Below, piece by piece: positions 2,131 to 7,810 of a DNA stretch of 64,000 nt. The DNA is from Microbacterium sp. C5A9. Lineage in GTDB: Bacteria > Actinomycetota > Actinomycetes > Actinomycetales > Microbacteriaceae. How positions within the stretch are numbered: position 1 is the first letter of the stretch; each line of letters opens with the position of its first letter. The DNA is taken from contig NZ_JABXGD010000003.1 in the NCBI RefSeq assembly GCF_022627955.1, positions 310,001-374,000 of the forward strand. The letters run 5' to 3'. The notes under the pieces were generated by a model. That model was given only the letters and a program-made list of their open reading frames with translations, made no database searches and had not been told where the DNA came from. Both the position numbers and the translations under genes were made by a program.

Positions 2131-2162
2131 GGGGATGCCGCGATCCCTGTCGCGACATCCCC
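2131..2162. terminator. Hairpin terminator between convergent genes
   Basis: Arms 2131-2143 and 2150-2162: GGGGATG pairs with CATCCCC and CGCGA with TCGCG around one mismatch, with a 6-nt loop. It lies 34 bases after the deoR stop and could also serve the CHAT operon coming from the right. A second, smaller stem (GCTTCG/CGAAGC, 2242-2257, 4-nt loop) is nearer the CHAT stop and is followed on the minus strand by GGTTTTTGGGG. Confidence 0.7.
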
Positions 2163-2328
2163 GGAGCAGATGGTGTCCTGCCGTCCTCACACTCCCCAGT
2201 GAATGAGGTTCCCCAAAAACCGACTTCTGCGCCTCCCTCGCGCTTCGTTCCCGAAGCCCTTCGCATGGCACCTTCTGCAGATAAGGAGCAGGTCGGCGAT
2301 GTTCTGATACATCGACTGGAGAAAACTT

Positions 2329-4797
2329 TCAGAGCCCGCTGCCGTGGCACTGGAACGGGGCTGTCAGGCCGGTCGATGCGGATGCCGAGGCCAGGGCGAC
2401 CGCCGGGGCGACACCGCGAGCCAGCTCGGAGTGCATGGCTCCCAGAAGCTCGCACGCCACGTCGTCGGCGACCACGACGGGAGCCGCGATCACGCTGCGG
2501 GTGCCGGCGTGCAGCCACACCCGGGTCATGCCCAGCGCCTCCTCGCCCCAGCGCACCGACGAGCGGCCGAGCTCGCACGCCGAGAGCACCACGGTCTCGG
2601 GTGCGCGCGGGATCAGGTCGACGTCGTAGCCGAACAGCGTGCCGTCGGCGAGCTCGAATCCCGAGAACAGCGGGTTGTCGACCGCGTGCCGACCGTGCGC
2701 GGCGATGTGCAGCACATCGACCTGCGCGGCGAGGTCGGTGACCGTCGCCACCCTCGCATCGGCGCCGGTGATGACGCGCGGGTCGGCTCCGGGAGCGGCA
2801 CGCGCGTCGCGCCAGGCACTCGCCGCGGTGCGCACCTCCTCGTCGGCGCGCGCGACGCGGGGCCCGGCCGTGAAGCCCGCGGTCTTCGTCGCGGCACGGG
2901 TGCGTGGGGGGTGCGGCGCCGACTCGTCGCCGAGCCAGCGGGACACCGAGGTCGCGAGGGTGAACGGCACCCCCGCCATGCCGGGGAGCATCGCCCAGGG
3001 CACGCCCGCGAGGATGCCGGGCACCGTCAGCGCGAGACGGTCGGCGCCGCCCGCCGCGGCGCGGACAGGCGCGAGCAGGGCCTCGTCGAGAGCCCGCAGC
3101 CTCTCGTCGAGCGATCGCATCACCGTCTGCGCCATCGGGCCGCCGCGCGTGAGGGCGGCGACGTCGAGGTCGGCCCTGAGCCCGTCGAGGGCGCGCTGGA
3201 TGCGGGGCCACGGCAGGTCGACGATCGACGATCCGGCAGGACCCACCGTCACGCAGACGAGGGCGGTGCCGGTGTAGACGTACGCCAGCACGGCCGTGTC
3301 GTCGTCGAGCCGCGCGCGCGTCTGCGCCAGATCGAGGCGCCCGCGGCTGCCGGCGACCCTGGTCGCCGTCCACTGACGGTCGCGCACCCGGTCACGCAGC
3401 TCCCGCACCCGCGCGTCGGTGGTCCAGTCGGATCCGGCGAGGTCGGCGCGCAGCATCCGCAGCTCCGCCAGGTCGGCGGCGAGCTCGGGATCTCGGGGCG
3501 GACGCACCGGCGCGACCTGCTGGCTGAGGTGCCGCGCACGCTCCGACCAGTCGAACAGCACCTCGGCATCACCCGATCGCGCGGCCGCGGCGAGGCCGGC
3601 GAACATCAGCTCGGTACCGTGCATCGCGACGGAGGCCTGGAGGTCGAGCGCACCGAACGACTGCTGCCAGGCGGTGAGCAGATCGAGCCCCTGCGCGGCG
3701 ATGCGCCGTGCCTCGGCATCGCGTCCGGCGGCGGATGCCCGCAGGGCGCGCACCTCGTGCGATCGCAGTCGGAGCGGCGTCGGGGCATCGGCGGCGAGCC
3801 GCGGCATGCGTCCTCCCCCCGCGAGGCGCGACGTGAGCGTCAGCGCCGTGGCCTCGGTGCGGAAGCCGCCGCGGGCCAGCGTCGCCGCGGTGCGCGTGAA
3901 CATCTCGGCATCGGGGGTCGAGCCGGGGCGCGAGCGGATGCGCGCCTCGAGGCGCACCGCCTCGGCCCGCGCCGCCCAGGCATCGCTGCCGAGCGCGGTG
4001 AAACGGCGGGCCGCCGTCGCGGCGGCCCGCTCGGCACCCGGGGCGTCGTGTCGCAGCAGCGATCGTGCGAGGTGGAACTCCGCCTCACCGCGGGCCTGCC
4101 GCATCCGCTGCGCGCCGAACCGCACGGCGACCGCGCCGAGCAGATCCTCCGCCTCGGTGGTGAGCCCCGCGTCGCGCAGCACCTCGGCCCGGTCGAGATC
4201 GCTGATCGCGGCGGCGAGGTCGCTCGTGGCGGCGAGGATCGGGCGCGACGCCGTCATCAGGGCGAGGGCCGTGACCAGGTCGCCGCCGAGCAGTGCGGCG
4301 TAGCCGAGGTTGTGCCGGGCCTCGGCCAGAGGCTCCTCGGCGCCGTGCGACTCGTAGGCGGCCGCGGCGCGGCGGAGGTCCGCGGTGCAGTCGTCGAGCC
4401 GATGGCGCTGCATGCCGACGATCGAGCGGCTCATCAGCAGGTTCGCGCTCGCGACCGAGTTCTCGTCGAGCGCGTCGATCGCGAGGGTCAGGAACGCGTC
4501 GGCCTCGTCGAGGCGGCCGGTGTGCATGAGCAGTGTGCCGAGCTGACCGTGCGCGAGCGCGATCGTCTCGGTGCTGATTCCCGGACGGGTGAGTGCCGCC
4601 CGCGACAGGCGTTCGGCCTCGGCGGGTTCGCCGGTCTGCGCGAGGACGTATGCGCGCGTCCCGTCGATGCGCGCCAGCAGGTCCTCGTCGTCGGTGCGCG
4701 CGGATGCGGCCGCCAGCGCGCGTCGAGCCTGCGCGAACCGTCGGGAGTTGGCTGCGTCGACGCCGCGCTGATGCAGCTCGCGCGCAGTCAGGGGCAT
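2329..4797 (-). CDS. TPR-CHAT caspase-like protease
   Basis: 822 aa, last gene of a four-gene minus-strand operon, 92 bases after the subtilase gene. Roughly residues 1-300 are degenerate TPR helices (repeated A..LG.LL...G...EA patterns). The C-terminal third is a CHAT domain, a caspase/separase-like cysteine protease. The catalytic pair is present: His in HIAAHGRH (about H701) and Cys in VLSACELG (about C741), followed by the typical ending TAPFQCHGSG. No signal peptide, so cytoplasmic. CHAT proteases usually cut one specific partner protein when a sensor domain is triggered; here candidate partners are the co-transcribed sigma factor, the 164-aa protein, or the protease at 4890-6458. The start at MPLTARELHQ is chosen because coding bias ends there and the open frame upstream overlaps the subtilase. 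Function in the cell is unknown. Confidence 0.9.
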   Translation of the reverse strand: MPLTARELHQRGVDAANSRRFAQARRALAAASARTDDEDLLARIDGTRAYVLAQTGEPAEAERLSRAALTRPGISTETIALAHGQLGTLLMHTGRLDEADAFLTLAIDALDENSVASANLLMSRSIVGMQRHRLDDCTADLRRAAAAYESHGAEEPLAEARHNLGYAALLGGDLVTALALMTASRPILAATSDLAAAISDLDRAEVLRDAGLTTEAEDLLGAVAVRFGAQRMRQARGEAEFHLARSLLRHDAPGAERAAATAARRFTALGSDAWAARAEAVRLEARIRSRPGSTPDAEMFTRTAATLARGGFRTEATALTLTSRLAGGGRMPRLAADAPTPLRLRSHEVRALRASAAGRDAEARRIAAQGLDLLTAWQQSFGALDLQASVAMHGTELMFAGLAAAARSGDAEVLFDWSERARHLSQQVAPVRPPRDPELAADLAELRMLRADLAGSDWTTDARVRELRDRVRDRQWTATRVAGSRGRLDLAQTRARLDDDTAVLAYVYTGTALVCVTVGPAGSSIVDLPWPRIQRALDGLRADLDVAALTRGGPMAQTVMRSLDERLRALDEALLAPVRAAAGGADRLALTVPGILAGVPWAMLPGMAGVPFTLATSVSRWLGDESAPHPPRTRAATKTAGFTAGPRVARADEEVRTAASAWRDARAAPGADPRVITGADARVATVTDLAAQVDVLHIAAHGRHAVDNPLFSGFELADGTLFGYDVDLIPRAPETVVLSACELGRSSVRWGEEALGMTRVWLHAGTRSVIAAPVVVADDVACELLGAMHSELARGVAPAVALASASASTGLTAPFQCHGSGL

Positions 4798-4889
4798 CCA
4801 ACCAGAATGCCGGTCTGCTCGGTGTCTGGGAAGGCCTGTGACGGCATCCGTGGCTCTCGGCGTTCCGATGCTGCGCCGTCTGCCCCCGG

Positions 4890-6458
4890 CTACTCCCGCG
4901 TGACCGGGGTGGGCAGGGCCTTCAGCACCGCCGCGACGGCCTTGGCCGCCGCATCCCGGGTGATGCCCTGCGGCGGAACCGTGCCGAGCCGCGCGGCGAT
5001 GCGCCCCGCGACGAACGGCGCCGCGAACGACGTGCCGCTCCAGATCGAGAATCCGCCGCGGTAGTCGTCGGGGTCGATCGTCTCGCGACGCAGCCCGTCG
5101 ACGTCCGCCCTGGTCGTGGCCTGCTCGCCGCCCACGAACGCGGGTGACGTGCTGACGACGGCGGCTCCCGGTGCGTAGACCCGAACCCAGGGGCCGACGT
5201 TCGAGAACAGCGCGACCGATCGGGCCGACGGGTTGAGAGCGCCGACCGAGACCAGCGGAGCATCTGCGTCGGCAGGAATGCCGTTGTCGGCTCCGGGCCA
5301 GGGCCAGAGGGATGCCGGGAACGACGGGCGATCGATGGCGTCGTTGCCCGCCGAGCAGACGACGATGCATCCGAGCTCGCGCGCCGTCGTGAGGATCGCC
5401 TCGAGGGTGCGGCTGAACAGGCCGTCGGTCGGCGTCTCGTGGTAGTACCCGAGCGACAGGTTGAGCACGTCGATCGGATGCCCGGTCGACGGGTCCTCCC
5501 GATGACGGCGCAGCAGCTCGACGACCTGCGAGACCGTGACGAGGAACGTGCTCTCGTCGATCACGCCGAGCGCGCCGGCCATGCGCACCGACAGGATGTC
5601 GGCATCCGGCGCCGTCTGCCGGATGATCCCCGCGATGAACGTGCCGTGACCCGCCACCGCGTCGATCTCGCCGTCGAGCTGCCCGTACAGATCCGGATAG
5701 CGCTCGGGGTCGGCGTCGTCGGTGAGTCCCACCGGCACCCCGTCGAGCTCGACATGCCGGGTGACGATGTCGTCGGGCAGCCACTCGTGCGTGCCGCAGC
5801 CGGTGTCGAGCACCGCGACGACAGGACGTCGCCCGCGCTTCGGAGCGGCCGCGCGCTGCGGCGCCGCGCCGATCCAGGTCACCGGCTGCCGGGCGCCGCG
5901 ACCGGGCTCGAGGTAGTCGTCGCTGCCGCCCGCGCCGGCTCCGCGCACCGGGTTGGTGCGGCTGAACGGGTTGGTGCGGCTGAAGGGATTGGTGCGGCTG
6001 AACGGGTTGAGCCCGACCGGGTCGATCGACAGCACGTGCTCGAGACTCGTGCGCGGCATCGGGGTGCCCGTGCTGCGCCGTGCGCGCTGCAGCACGCGCC
6101 AGGCGTCGGGCGGCACGGGCGACTCGCCGCGGCTCGGCTCATCGGGTGTCGTGAGGTGCGCGCGCAGGAAGCCCGCGACGCCGGGCAGCAGCGGTCCTGC
6201 CGCGAGTCGCGTCTCCGGCGACTCGAGGTCGAGGTTCCAGCCGAACGATCGCGCGGCGTCGATCAGCGCGCGGATCTCGCCGTCGTACGCCTCGTTGTCG
6301 TCGTCGCGGTCGTTCGTGATGAGAAGTCGCTCGGGCAGGTAGGCGGTCGGGAAGGCGCGCACGCCGCCGACCGGCTCCACGGTCGGATCCAGGGCCGCGC
6401 CGCGACGGATCGATCCCTCCGCGCGATCCTGCCAGGTCCACCCTCGGGGCTGCTCCAT
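4890..6458 (-). CDS. Cytoplasmic subtilisin-like (S8) serine protease with NPFSRT repeats
   Basis: 522 aa. The subtilase catalytic set is complete: Asp218 in AVLDTG, His271 in GHGTFIAG, oxyanion Asn372 in SAGN, Ser477 in SGTSFAAP. There is no signal peptide or membrane segment, so it probably acts inside the cell, unlike most actinobacterial subtilases. The first ~145 residues are an extra domain (contains RLLITNDRDDDNEAYDGEIRALID) that I do not recognise. Between it and the protease domain lie three perfect copies of NPFSRT (residues 151-168) plus a fourth partial NP. GAGGAGAGG precedes the ATG as ribosome site. Lies between the sigma/164-aa pair and the TPR-CHAT gene in one operon. Confidence 0.93.
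   Translation of the reverse strand: MEQPRGWTWQDRAEGSIRRGAALDPTVEPVGGVRAFPTAYLPERLLITNDRDDDNEAYDGEIRALIDAARSFGWNLDLESPETRLAAGPLLPGVAGFLRAHLTTPDEPSRGESPVPPDAWRVLQRARRSTGTPMPRTSLEHVLSIDPVGLNPFSRTNPFSRTNPFSRTNPVRGAGAGGSDDYLEPGRGARQPVTWIGAAPQRAAAPKRGRRPVVAVLDTGCGTHEWLPDDIVTRHVELDGVPVGLTDDADPERYPDLYGQLDGEIDAVAGHGTFIAGIIRQTAPDADILSVRMAGALGVIDESTFLVTVSQVVELLRRHREDPSTGHPIDVLNLSLGYYHETPTDGLFSRTLEAILTTARELGCIVVCSAGNDAIDRPSFPASLWPWPGADNGIPADADAPLVSVGALNPSARSVALFSNVGPWVRVYAPGAAVVSTSPAFVGGEQATTRADVDGLRRETIDPDDYRGGFSIWSGTSFAAPFVAGRIAARLGTVPPQGITRDAAAKAVAAVLKALPTPVTRE
5955..6008 (-). repeat. Three 18-bp tandem repeats encoding NPFSRT
   Basis: Three 18-bp units in frame within the S8 protease gene, coding residues 151-168, differing by single bases (gaacgg/gaaggg/gaacgg variants). 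They sit in the linker between the N-terminal domain and the catalytic domain. Confidence 0.95.
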
Positions 6459-6539
6459 CGTCGGTCCTCTCCTCGCGGGCTGAGCCGCGTCGTGTGTGCG
6501 GGAGAACCCCGCGGCCTGTGCGGGTCGCCCCGCGGTGGA

Positions 6540-7034
6540 TCACAACTCGAACTGCGGTGTCGACAGGGTGCGCTGCTGGTCGCCGGCCGTGGTGGTGAGG
6601 CGCACGAGGGTCAGCCCGTCGGGAACGTCGTCGAACACGAACCGTCCGGTGTCGCTCGCGGTGGTGGTGCGGCGGCGCTCTCCCTGTGCGAGCTCCACGC
6701 CGGCGGCGGCGGTGTCGACCCAGCCGTCGATGCGGTGGCGTCCGTTCTCCGTGCGGGTGACGTGCAGCAGGATGCTGGTCGTGCCGTCGCTGAACTGCAG
6801 GGTCAGCGCATCGGCGTCGCCGCGCACCGCGCTGAGCGGCTGTTCGACCAGTGTCAGCAGGGCGTACTCCTCCGAGAGCCCCTCGGCGGCGACGGACGCG
6901 ATCATCCGGTCGATCAGCGTCGCCGGCATCGGGTCGACGTCGCGCCAGAGCGCACGCAGTCGGGCGAACAGGGCGGCGTCGTCGCTCGCCTCGTTCTCGC
7001 CCTGCCCGCTGTGACTCGGGTCATCGTCGCTCAT
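6540..7034 (-). CDS. 164-aa protein co-translated with the sigma factor; possible sigma partner
   Basis: Begins with ATGA overlapping the sigma-factor stop, so made in step with it. Residues 1-30 are acidic and disordered; about 20-60 (LFARLRALWRDVDPMPATLIDRMIASVAAEGL) is a short helical segment like the N-terminus of small sigma-associated proteins; the remainder (about 70-164) is beta-rich and ends with SDTGRFVFDDVPDGLTLVRL, resembling a carboxypeptidase-regulatory or transthyretin-like sandwich. No transmembrane segment and no zinc-binding HxxxCxxC, so not a classic ZAS anti-sigma factor. Its role is not known; a regulator or proteolytic target within this operon is a reasonable guess. Confidence 0.85.
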   Translation of the reverse strand: MSDDDPSHSGQGENEASDDAALFARLRALWRDVDPMPATLIDRMIASVAAEGLSEEYALLTLVEQPLSAVRGDADALTLQFSDGTTSILLHVTRTENGRHRIDGWVDTAAAGVELAQGERRRTTTASDTGRFVFDDVPDGLTLVRLTTTAGDQQRTLSTPQFEL

Positions 7035-7666
7035 GGCGCGCCCTCCGTCCGCGGTGTCGGGGCGTCGAGCAGATCACGCAGCTTGGCGAGGCAGCGTCGA
7101 CGCGTGGGTCCGATGCTGCCGACCGGCATCGCCAGATCGGCGGCGAGCCGCGCGTAGTCCGGGCGCTCCTCGAAGGCGATCACCCGCAGCAGCTGCTGGC
7201 AGCGCTCGGCGAGGCGCGTCACCGCCGACCACAGGCGACGGTTCTCGTCTCCCGTCGCGGCGTGGTCTTCGGCCGACTGCTGCGCGGGCAGCAGCGCGTC
7301 GAGAGCATCCGTCTCCGTCGTATCGGCCCGGTTGTGCGCCTTGCCGGCCCGCCAGGCCTCGCGGCGGGCGGTCGTCGTCAGCCAGGCCGAGACGGCACGG
7401 GGCTCGGCGATCGACCGGTGACCGCGCACGAGCTGCAACCAGGTGGTCTGGATCACGTCCTCGGCCAGCGTGCGCTCGAGCCCGTATGCGCGCACCACAT
7501 GCCAGAGGACAGGCGTCATCAACCGCACGAGGTCGTCCATCGCGCGGCTGTCGCCGTCTCGCCATGCGTCGAAGAGGTCGGCGGCTCGCTTCCAGCGTGC
7601 CGCTCCGTCGTCCGGCGCAGGATCGAAGGCGGCGCCATCGGGTGCGCCGTCGATCATGAGTCCCAT
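7031..7666 (-). CDS. ECF-like RNA polymerase sigma factor
   Basis: 211 aa from the ATG at 7666. Region 2 is seen in LFDAWRDGDSRAMDDLVRLMTPVLWHVVR...AEDVIQTTWLQLVRG and region 4 in RCQQLLRVIAFEERPDYARLAADLAMPVGSIGPTRRRCLAKLRDLL, the standard two-domain ECF layout. It heads the operon that carries the 164-aa protein, the S8 protease and the TPR-CHAT protease, and probably directs their transcription or is itself controlled by them. The start is uncertain: ATGs at 7657, 7666 and 7711 are all in frame and none has a clear ribosome site. Confidence 0.88.
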   Translation of the reverse strand: MGLMIDGAPDGAAFDPAPDDGAARWKRAADLFDAWRDGDSRAMDDLVRLMTPVLWHVVRAYGLERTLAEDVIQTTWLQLVRGHRSIAEPRAVSAWLTTTARREAWRAGKAHNRADTTETDALDALLPAQQSAEDHAATGDENRRLWSAVTRLAERCQQLLRVIAFEERPDYARLAADLAMPVGSIGPTRRRCLAKLRDLLDAPTPRTEGAP

Positions 7667-7810
7667 TGTGATCACATCATCAAGGAGCACGGCAAGAGCC
7701 CGGTGATACATGGACTCGGTCAATTTCTCCACAGATCGCGTCGTCTCGGCATCCGGTCGTGCCCGTCTGCGCGATCTCGCCCCACGCGATGCACCCGATA
7801 CCGTGGAGAG

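Follow-up and report, generated by a model that had tools for sequence, protein, structure and literature searches.

What does the gene of a sigma factor do in one operon with the genes of two proteases? The question is raised by a locus in a 64,000-nucleotide (nt) stretch of Microbacterium sp. C5A9 (contig NZ_JABXGD010000003.1, positions 310,001 to 374,000; hereafter the window, in whose numbering coordinates are given). Here an operon of four genes on the minus strand (2329-7666) encodes, in this order, an extracytoplasmic function (ECF)-type sigma factor, a protein of 164 amino acids (aa), a subtilisin-like protease of family S8 and a TPR-CHAT protein. An earlier note, made from the letters of the window alone, had described four same-strand genes with overlap or short gaps; this arrangement was confirmed, all four being on the minus strand and the sigma, S8 and CHAT domains scoring above their cut-offs.

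The answer that we favour, with a probability of about 50%, is that this is an ECF54-like locus whose sigma factor is gated by proteolysis, the restraint exerted by the 164-aa protein being relieved by the TPR-CHAT and S8 proteins and the output consisting of the operon itself and a predicted small RNA encoded next to it. Judged by sequence, the sigma factor is almost always accompanied by the 164-aa protein, their genes usually overlapping, the S8 and CHAT proteins are a linked pair with predicted intact catalytic sites, and the operon and the adjoining structured RNA have one conserved promoter-like motif which is rare elsewhere in the genome.

The four proteins and their conservation

The sigma factor (211 aa, 7031-7666) matched TIGR02937 with 62.4 bits (cut-off 42.9) and Sigma70_r2 with 33.4 bits (cut-off 24), and is probably a member of group ECF54. 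Its stop codon shares the four nucleotides ATGA with the start of the gene for the 164-aa partner (6540-7034), and in 43 of the 73 relatives' loci where both genes were located the latter gene has an in-frame start (ATG or GTG) at the sigma stop, again with a 4-nt overlap. The S8 protease (522 aa, 4890-6458) matched PF00082 with 92.6 bits, and the TPR-CHAT protein (822 aa, 2329-4797) matched PF12770 with 98.9 bits, its CHAT domain spanning about 2380-3105. No hydrophobic N-terminus was visible in any of the four proteins by eye, no signal-peptide program having been run.

The set of four genes (the cassette) was followed in 149 genomes of the genus Microbacterium. The 164-aa protein and CHAT occurred together in 80 genomes, each was found alone in one (G271 and G152, respectively), and both were missing from 67 (Fisher p about 2e-40); the total for the 164-aa protein, 82, includes a spurious match without a cassette (G191), and that for CHAT was 81. 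A first set of 60 loci, of which 56 are from Microbacterium and four from other genera of the family, contained sigma, 164-aa and CHAT genes in 59 cases and the S8 gene as well in 58, the exceptions being the spurious match and locus L042. A second set, of 80 loci, was collected via CHAT; it overlaps the first in species, and 76 of its loci are labelled Microbacterium. All four genes were present in order in 73 of these loci, the remaining seven being without at least one gene and several of them truncated by contig ends. The expectation of the earlier note that the genes would be neighbours in relatives and occur together there thus held within the genus. Altered gene order was found in three loci of the first set (L044, L053 and L094). 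The S8-CHAT gap was longer in three others (L036, L047 and L083), with about 1.3 to 4 kb of extra sequence, and CHAT may be transcribed separately there; opposite-strand genes were seen inside the gap of L036 and L047. At G239:C1:1121131-1123586, in a genome that is 68% complete, the CHAT match was in four pieces, two of them with an internal stop, possibly a pseudogene or the result of sequencing errors.

Family-wide the cassette was rare by single-sequence search (6 of 150), and a profile of the 164-aa family found 81 places in 75 of 394 genomes of the class. Sixty of these places, picked for spread and including three from Microbacterium, form the class-level set. The 164-aa gene was detected in all 60 and the sigma gene in 59, and in 59 the 164-aa gene was the next cassette gene after sigma. 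S8 and CHAT were both present in 47 loci, both missing in 13 and never found one without the other; absence here refers to the fetched stretch, some stretches ending at contig ends, and the loci are related, so that the counts are not independent events. The protease-bearing loci showed seven arrangements besides the protease-free one. This linked presence despite shuffled order argues that the two proteases work together, and the 13 protease-free loci argue that the sigma/164-aa pair is the core, which in those loci must be regulated without the two proteases. The protease-free pairs (L139-L142, L144, L146, L147, L152, L153, L156, L157, L162 and L166) come mostly from one genus (g135).

The 164-aa protein was modelled with AlphaFold2 (mean predicted local distance difference test, pLDDT, 83; predicted template modelling score, pTM, 0.57) as two N-terminal helices followed by an Ig-like beta domain. 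It matched CarboxypepD_reg weakly (14.3 bits, cut-off 32.3). The best rows in a second look at fold matches were beta-sandwich domains with Z 7-9, in which the two N-terminal helices were barely tested, and the resemblance may merely reflect a common arrangement. The family profile found three sequences in the PDB up to E 5, none of them Csx30.

The S8 protease has, as the earlier note had stated, a full catalytic set (Asp218, His271, Asn372 and Ser477) and no export signal visible by eye. All four residues were aligned in 47 of 47 class-level homologues, distant members of which often scored weakly (60-160 bits) against the genus profile. The model of the protein (pLDDT 78, pTM 0.85) comprised an N-terminal domain (residues 1-147, 6018-6458) of strand-helix-strand-strand-helix-strand topology, a disordered linker (residues 148-194, 5877-6017; pLDDT under 50) and the catalytic domain. 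Both domains were covered by the alignments with PCSK9 (5vla; residues 35-521, Z 24.2, root-mean-square deviation 4.4, 303 residues aligned) and with unprocessed pro-subtilisin E (3whi; residues 42-520, Z 22.8, deviation 4.0, 293 aligned). The N-terminal domain was included in six of 50 second-look alignment rows among the matches listed, and a Pfam scan gave no I9 profile match in this protein up to E 1, though fold and alignment agreed with an I9-like prodomain. The protein is thus modelled as a subtilisin zymogen, with prodomain and catalytic domain in one chain as in the two reference structures, from which it differs by the lack of a visible export signal, by a tandem repeat at the junction and by its operon with sigma and CHAT.

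This repeat, made of NPFSRT units in the window, was present in 59 of 59 sequences, the window's included, as three to nine copies of a unit of five to seven residues, mostly N, S or A, then P, then F, Y or H and two or three further residues. The copies were near-identical inside one protein and differed among species, and the coding pattern used as query occurred nowhere else in the organism's own genome. A scan of similar kind found a like array in 12 of the 47 class-level homologues and not in the other 35. Subtilisin prodomains block the activity of the enzyme up to the moment of cleavage at the junction. The repeat at this place may be where a partner protease docks or cuts, and CHAT is the linked candidate for such a partner.

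The His/Cys dyad which the earlier note had seen in the CHAT domain is present in the window as His701 (2695-2697) and Cys741 (2575-2577). Both residues were found in 46 of 47 class-level homologues, the remaining one, from a locus at a contig end, being gapped at both positions. The TPR matches of the window protein were below the Pfam cut-offs, and its family profile matched solved TPR proteins. Csx29 was absent among the 60 of 63 PDB matches of this profile that were listed, and none was found with the CHAT domain alone.

Promoter-like motif and predicted small RNA

A motif common to relatives, TGTATCA and GCTC separated by about 15 nt, precedes the sigma gene; in the window (TGTATCA-N15-GCTC, 7685-7710, minus strand) it ends 18 nt 5' of the start codon. 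A second site of the same type (2286-2311, minus strand) lies about 20 bp 3' of the CHAT stop codon and is followed by the predicted small RNA; this fifth element of the locus, at about 2131-2311, lies just outside the coordinates of the earlier note, which had missed it. In the second locus set a loose form of the motif was found 5' of sigma in 68 of 80 loci and 3' of CHAT in 71 within 600 nt and in 74 at any distance, with only four other matches, three of them on the same strand further on. Genome-wide, the strict motif occurred 177 times in 81 cassette genomes (2.19 per genome) versus 20 times in 68 others (0.29 per genome), the reversed pattern giving about 0.65 per genome in both groups, which suggests that the predicted regulon is essentially the operon and the small RNA. 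An exact pattern of this kind would miss weaker sites, and the extra sites in relatives were inspected only among the matches listed.

The organism's own genome contained five loose sites, as many as the reversed control, and two of these are the cassette sites. The remaining three were taken as chance, two lying inside frames that by eye are solute-binding-protein-like and uvrC-like, and the third where an oxidoreductase-like gene of the opposite reading direction has its stop codon. Of 59 class-level loci, 21 (two of them from Microbacterium) had the loose motif ahead of the first cassette gene, with no match for the reversed pattern and three on the opposite strand; the motif is widespread, yet in its loose form it is not present in most class-level loci. 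The S8 gene was the first behind it in 14 of these 21 loci.

Further sites were observed in other Microbacteriaceae, in L038 (8532-9020, minus strand), L039 (about 3130, minus strand) and L040 (about 10322, plus strand), followed by small open frames of 139, 59 and 59 aa, respectively. Two of these frames start alike (HPPLPxExPGGLPEL) and the third has a similar LPSELP stretch; the 139-aa frame had no Pfam match. In L165 a second TGTATCA motif directly follows the 164-aa gene (from 6453) and precedes a frame of roughly 890 aa which by eye resembles an ATPase-type regulator, and L042 has two divergent TGTATCA motifs 3' of CHAT. The palindrome TGTGATCACA (7667-7676, minus strand) stands between the operon promoter-like site and the sigma start codon of the window; variants of it were seen in many relatives and not 5' of the RNA, and it is possibly an extra operator.

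The predicted small RNA (2131-2287, minus strand) consists of a structured multi-helix body of roughly 120 nt (model match 2163-2287) and a terminal GC-rich hairpin (2131-2162). The sequence behind the second site folded with a z score of -4.72, none of 200 shuffles being as stable, and a best-stem search, run without a shuffled control, picked a hairpin of this GC-rich type in 42 of 42 non-redundant loci. The consensus structure was drawn from anchors, automatic folding of a MAFFT alignment having given another consensus. In an unfitted alignment of 21 sequences, all 500 shuffles stayed below the observed value for three covariation measures; the number of pairs with double changes was reached by 18 of the 500, and the alignment was unremarkable for further pair types (462 of 500). 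When 42 sequences (41 distinct) were fitted to the structure, a procedure which favours that structure and beside which the unfitted result is weaker, all five measures exceeded all 500 shuffles: 12 of 24 pairs had changed on both sides versus 5.2 in shuffles, and double-change cells numbered 57 versus 20.6, with 0 of 500 as high. Swapping of closing arms among 37 of the 42 loci lowered the stability from -25.2 to -22.2 kcal/mol (0 of 20,000 permutations). The word TGGGG occurred 1.86 times per RNA versus 0.54 expected under a first-order model, and 0.78 times in hairpin loops versus 0.14 expected. No Rfam family scored above gathering, three microRNA matches being far below it (E 3.3 to 9.2).

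A covariance model, R1, built from the 21 sequences matched 42 of 81 sources of the genus set at E 0.001 or better, and more divergent candidates were seen at the same place in other genus loci. By genome, 36 of 149 had a match at E 0.01 or better and 29 at E 1e-5 or better, the latter all cassette genomes; in some genomes, for instance G150 and G264, the RNA lies kilobases away from CHAT. Among 71 loci searched, the 33 from other genera gave no match better than E 0.06, which is weak evidence as R1 is narrow.

In 51 of 70 loci the next downstream gene, as picked by a script, was convergent with the RNA, which is thus no conserved leader. A small protein expressed from the second site was also considered and rejected: 192 of 248 indel runs relative to the window, spread over all 41 other rows, were not multiples of three, and these frame-breaking changes favour an RNA over a protein product. 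The three frames of the body were free of stops in 26, 27 and 29 of 37 loci, and stops alone do not exclude coding in GC-rich DNA; among those listed, the open frames after the second site differed by eye from locus to locus. A role of the RNA as a CsrA sponge was considered as well, but eight of the 29 genomes with strong RNA matches lack CsrA and 21 have it, so that CsrA is not needed. CsrA was found in 38 of the 149 genomes, including nine of 52 other cassette genomes and eight of 68 without the cassette; it is commoner with strong RNA matches, which may be a clade effect, and a partial link between CsrA and the RNA is possible. Pairing with 6C RNA was dismissed, no 6C being found in the organism's own genome.

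Proposed proteolytic control of the sigma factor and its alternatives

The gene set itself has a precedent, and the description of the locus by the earlier note as an undescribed system did not stand. A review already lists carboxypeptidase, subtilase and CHAT genes as conserved in the context of ECF54, for which control by proteolysis, without an anti-sigma factor and mainly in Actinobacteria, is proposed (PMC8999054). The locus shares with that group the ECF sigma core and the subtilase and CHAT neighbours; a counterpart of the carboxypeptidase neighbour may be the 164-aa protein, given its sub-threshold CarboxypepD_reg match and its Ig-like model domain. It differs in that the passages on the group do not mention an RNA target, a promoter motif, an S8 zymogen or a repeat linker (PMC8999054). 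Literature searches covering open-licence papers showed no description of this RNA, of a regulon with nearly a single target, of the repeat linker in the zymogen, or of the motif or another ECF54 promoter; the four features are presented here as new.

The closest parallel for the proposed logic is type III-E CRISPR (clustered regularly interspaced short palindromic repeats), where Csx29 cleaves Csx30, an inhibitor of CASP-sigma (PMC10028731). There too, as described in that work, a TPR-CHAT His/Cys protease adjoins an ECF-like sigma factor and a third protein, and the predicted sigma targets include the own locus; the present locus has an extra S8 protease, and its partner has 164 aa versus the 565 aa of Csx30 (PMC10028731). 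By this analogy, sigma is probably held back by the 164-aa protein (PMC10028731). The proposal of the earlier note that such logic may exist without CRISPR was supported in part: the components do occur together, and a simple scan for repeats in 232 records (3.55 Mb), in which cas genes were not searched, found no CRISPR array and flagged only a three-copy 22-mer at two places, evidently one contig twice; a step like that of Csx29 is not universal, 13 of 60 class-level loci being protease-free in the fetched stretch. The role in stress, cell death or phage defence that the earlier note suggested is hypothetical. In the CalpL/CalpT/CalpS system a protease reportedly frees a sigma factor from its small partner protein, as is proposed here, that protease being said to be a SAVED-Lon protein fed by cyclic oligoadenylate; up to E 1, no SAVED-Lon domain of Pfam was matched by the four proteins of the locus.

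In the reading that we favour, the 164-aa protein would restrain sigma until the TPR part senses a trigger and the cysteine protease CHAT is switched on. This protease and the S8 zymogen would then act one after the other, possibly via the repeat linker of S8, and destroy or dislodge the 164-aa protein, and the freed sigma factor would transcribe its own operon, in positive feedback, together with the small RNA, which would carry the response. We also consider, tentatively, a more far-reaching version: a CRISPR-free two-protease cascade whose sole output besides sigma itself is a structured RNA with exposed UGGGG loops, which might execute the response or be a ligand feeding back on TPR-CHAT, promoters of the same kind driving small unknown proteins in sister lineages. 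Several observations weigh against gating of the kind proposed. Besides the 13 class-level loci with sigma and the 164-aa gene but neither protease, S8 is missing from the Microbacterium locus L042, which has sigma, 164-aa and CHAT, and the gene order of L044 puts 164-aa ahead of sigma; a fold search with the 164-aa model found nothing at E 0.001 or better; no more than 21 of 59 class-level loci had the loose motif at the head of the cassette; and the RNA hairpin of the window has no T-run, its transcription being predicted only.

Proteolysis might instead, much as has been published for ECF54, serve as an off-switch, the subtilase and CHAT degrading sigma and keeping its level low until a trigger stops them, with the 164-aa protein as adaptor or chaperone and not as inhibitor. 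The review assigns ECF54 to those sigma factors that proteolysis keeps inactive with no anti-sigma factor involved, and offers AntA/ClpXP as a precedent (PMC8999054). The motif before the operon, however, would have sigma induce its own degraders, and two conserved proteases with an overlapping partner gene look more elaborate than such a switch needs; we regard this explanation as unlikely. The occurrence of sigma/164-aa pairs without proteases, and of S8 as the first gene behind the motif in two thirds of the class-level motif loci (14 of 21), would also suit an arrangement in which sigma, under a 164-aa sensor, induces S8 and CHAT as effectors that cut cell targets in dormancy, death or defence. 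We regard this as unlikely too: the only link of the four proteins to a known defence or toxin family was a weak match of S8 (PADLOC matched S8 alone, best 31 bits, to IetS; S8 scored 27.2 bits against NCBIfam IteS, cut-off 900, and no ATPase match of an IetAS pair was found among the four), a zymogen S8 and CHAT would still need activation, and in Microbacterium the same motif precedes the RNA too.

The element behind CHAT could, finally, be a transcription end or a remnant rather than an RNA gene, the operon promoter alone being functional. The region does end in a GC-rich hairpin, without a T-run, and its three reading frames are often all open. Such an origin is nevertheless highly improbable in view of the motif within 600 nt of CHAT in 71 of 80 loci, of the 57 double-change cells versus 20.6 and of the 1.86 TGGGG words per RNA versus 0.54.

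If the sigma factor is gated by the two proteases as we favour, a gene neighbourhood that has been noted and left unexplained would turn out to be a full circuit, with its promoter defined, a regulon of nearly one target and an RNA as output, and caspase-like TPR-CHAT proteins would be shown to control a sigma factor outside CRISPR as well. The wiring of this proposed switch is unusual and can be tested directly, step by step.

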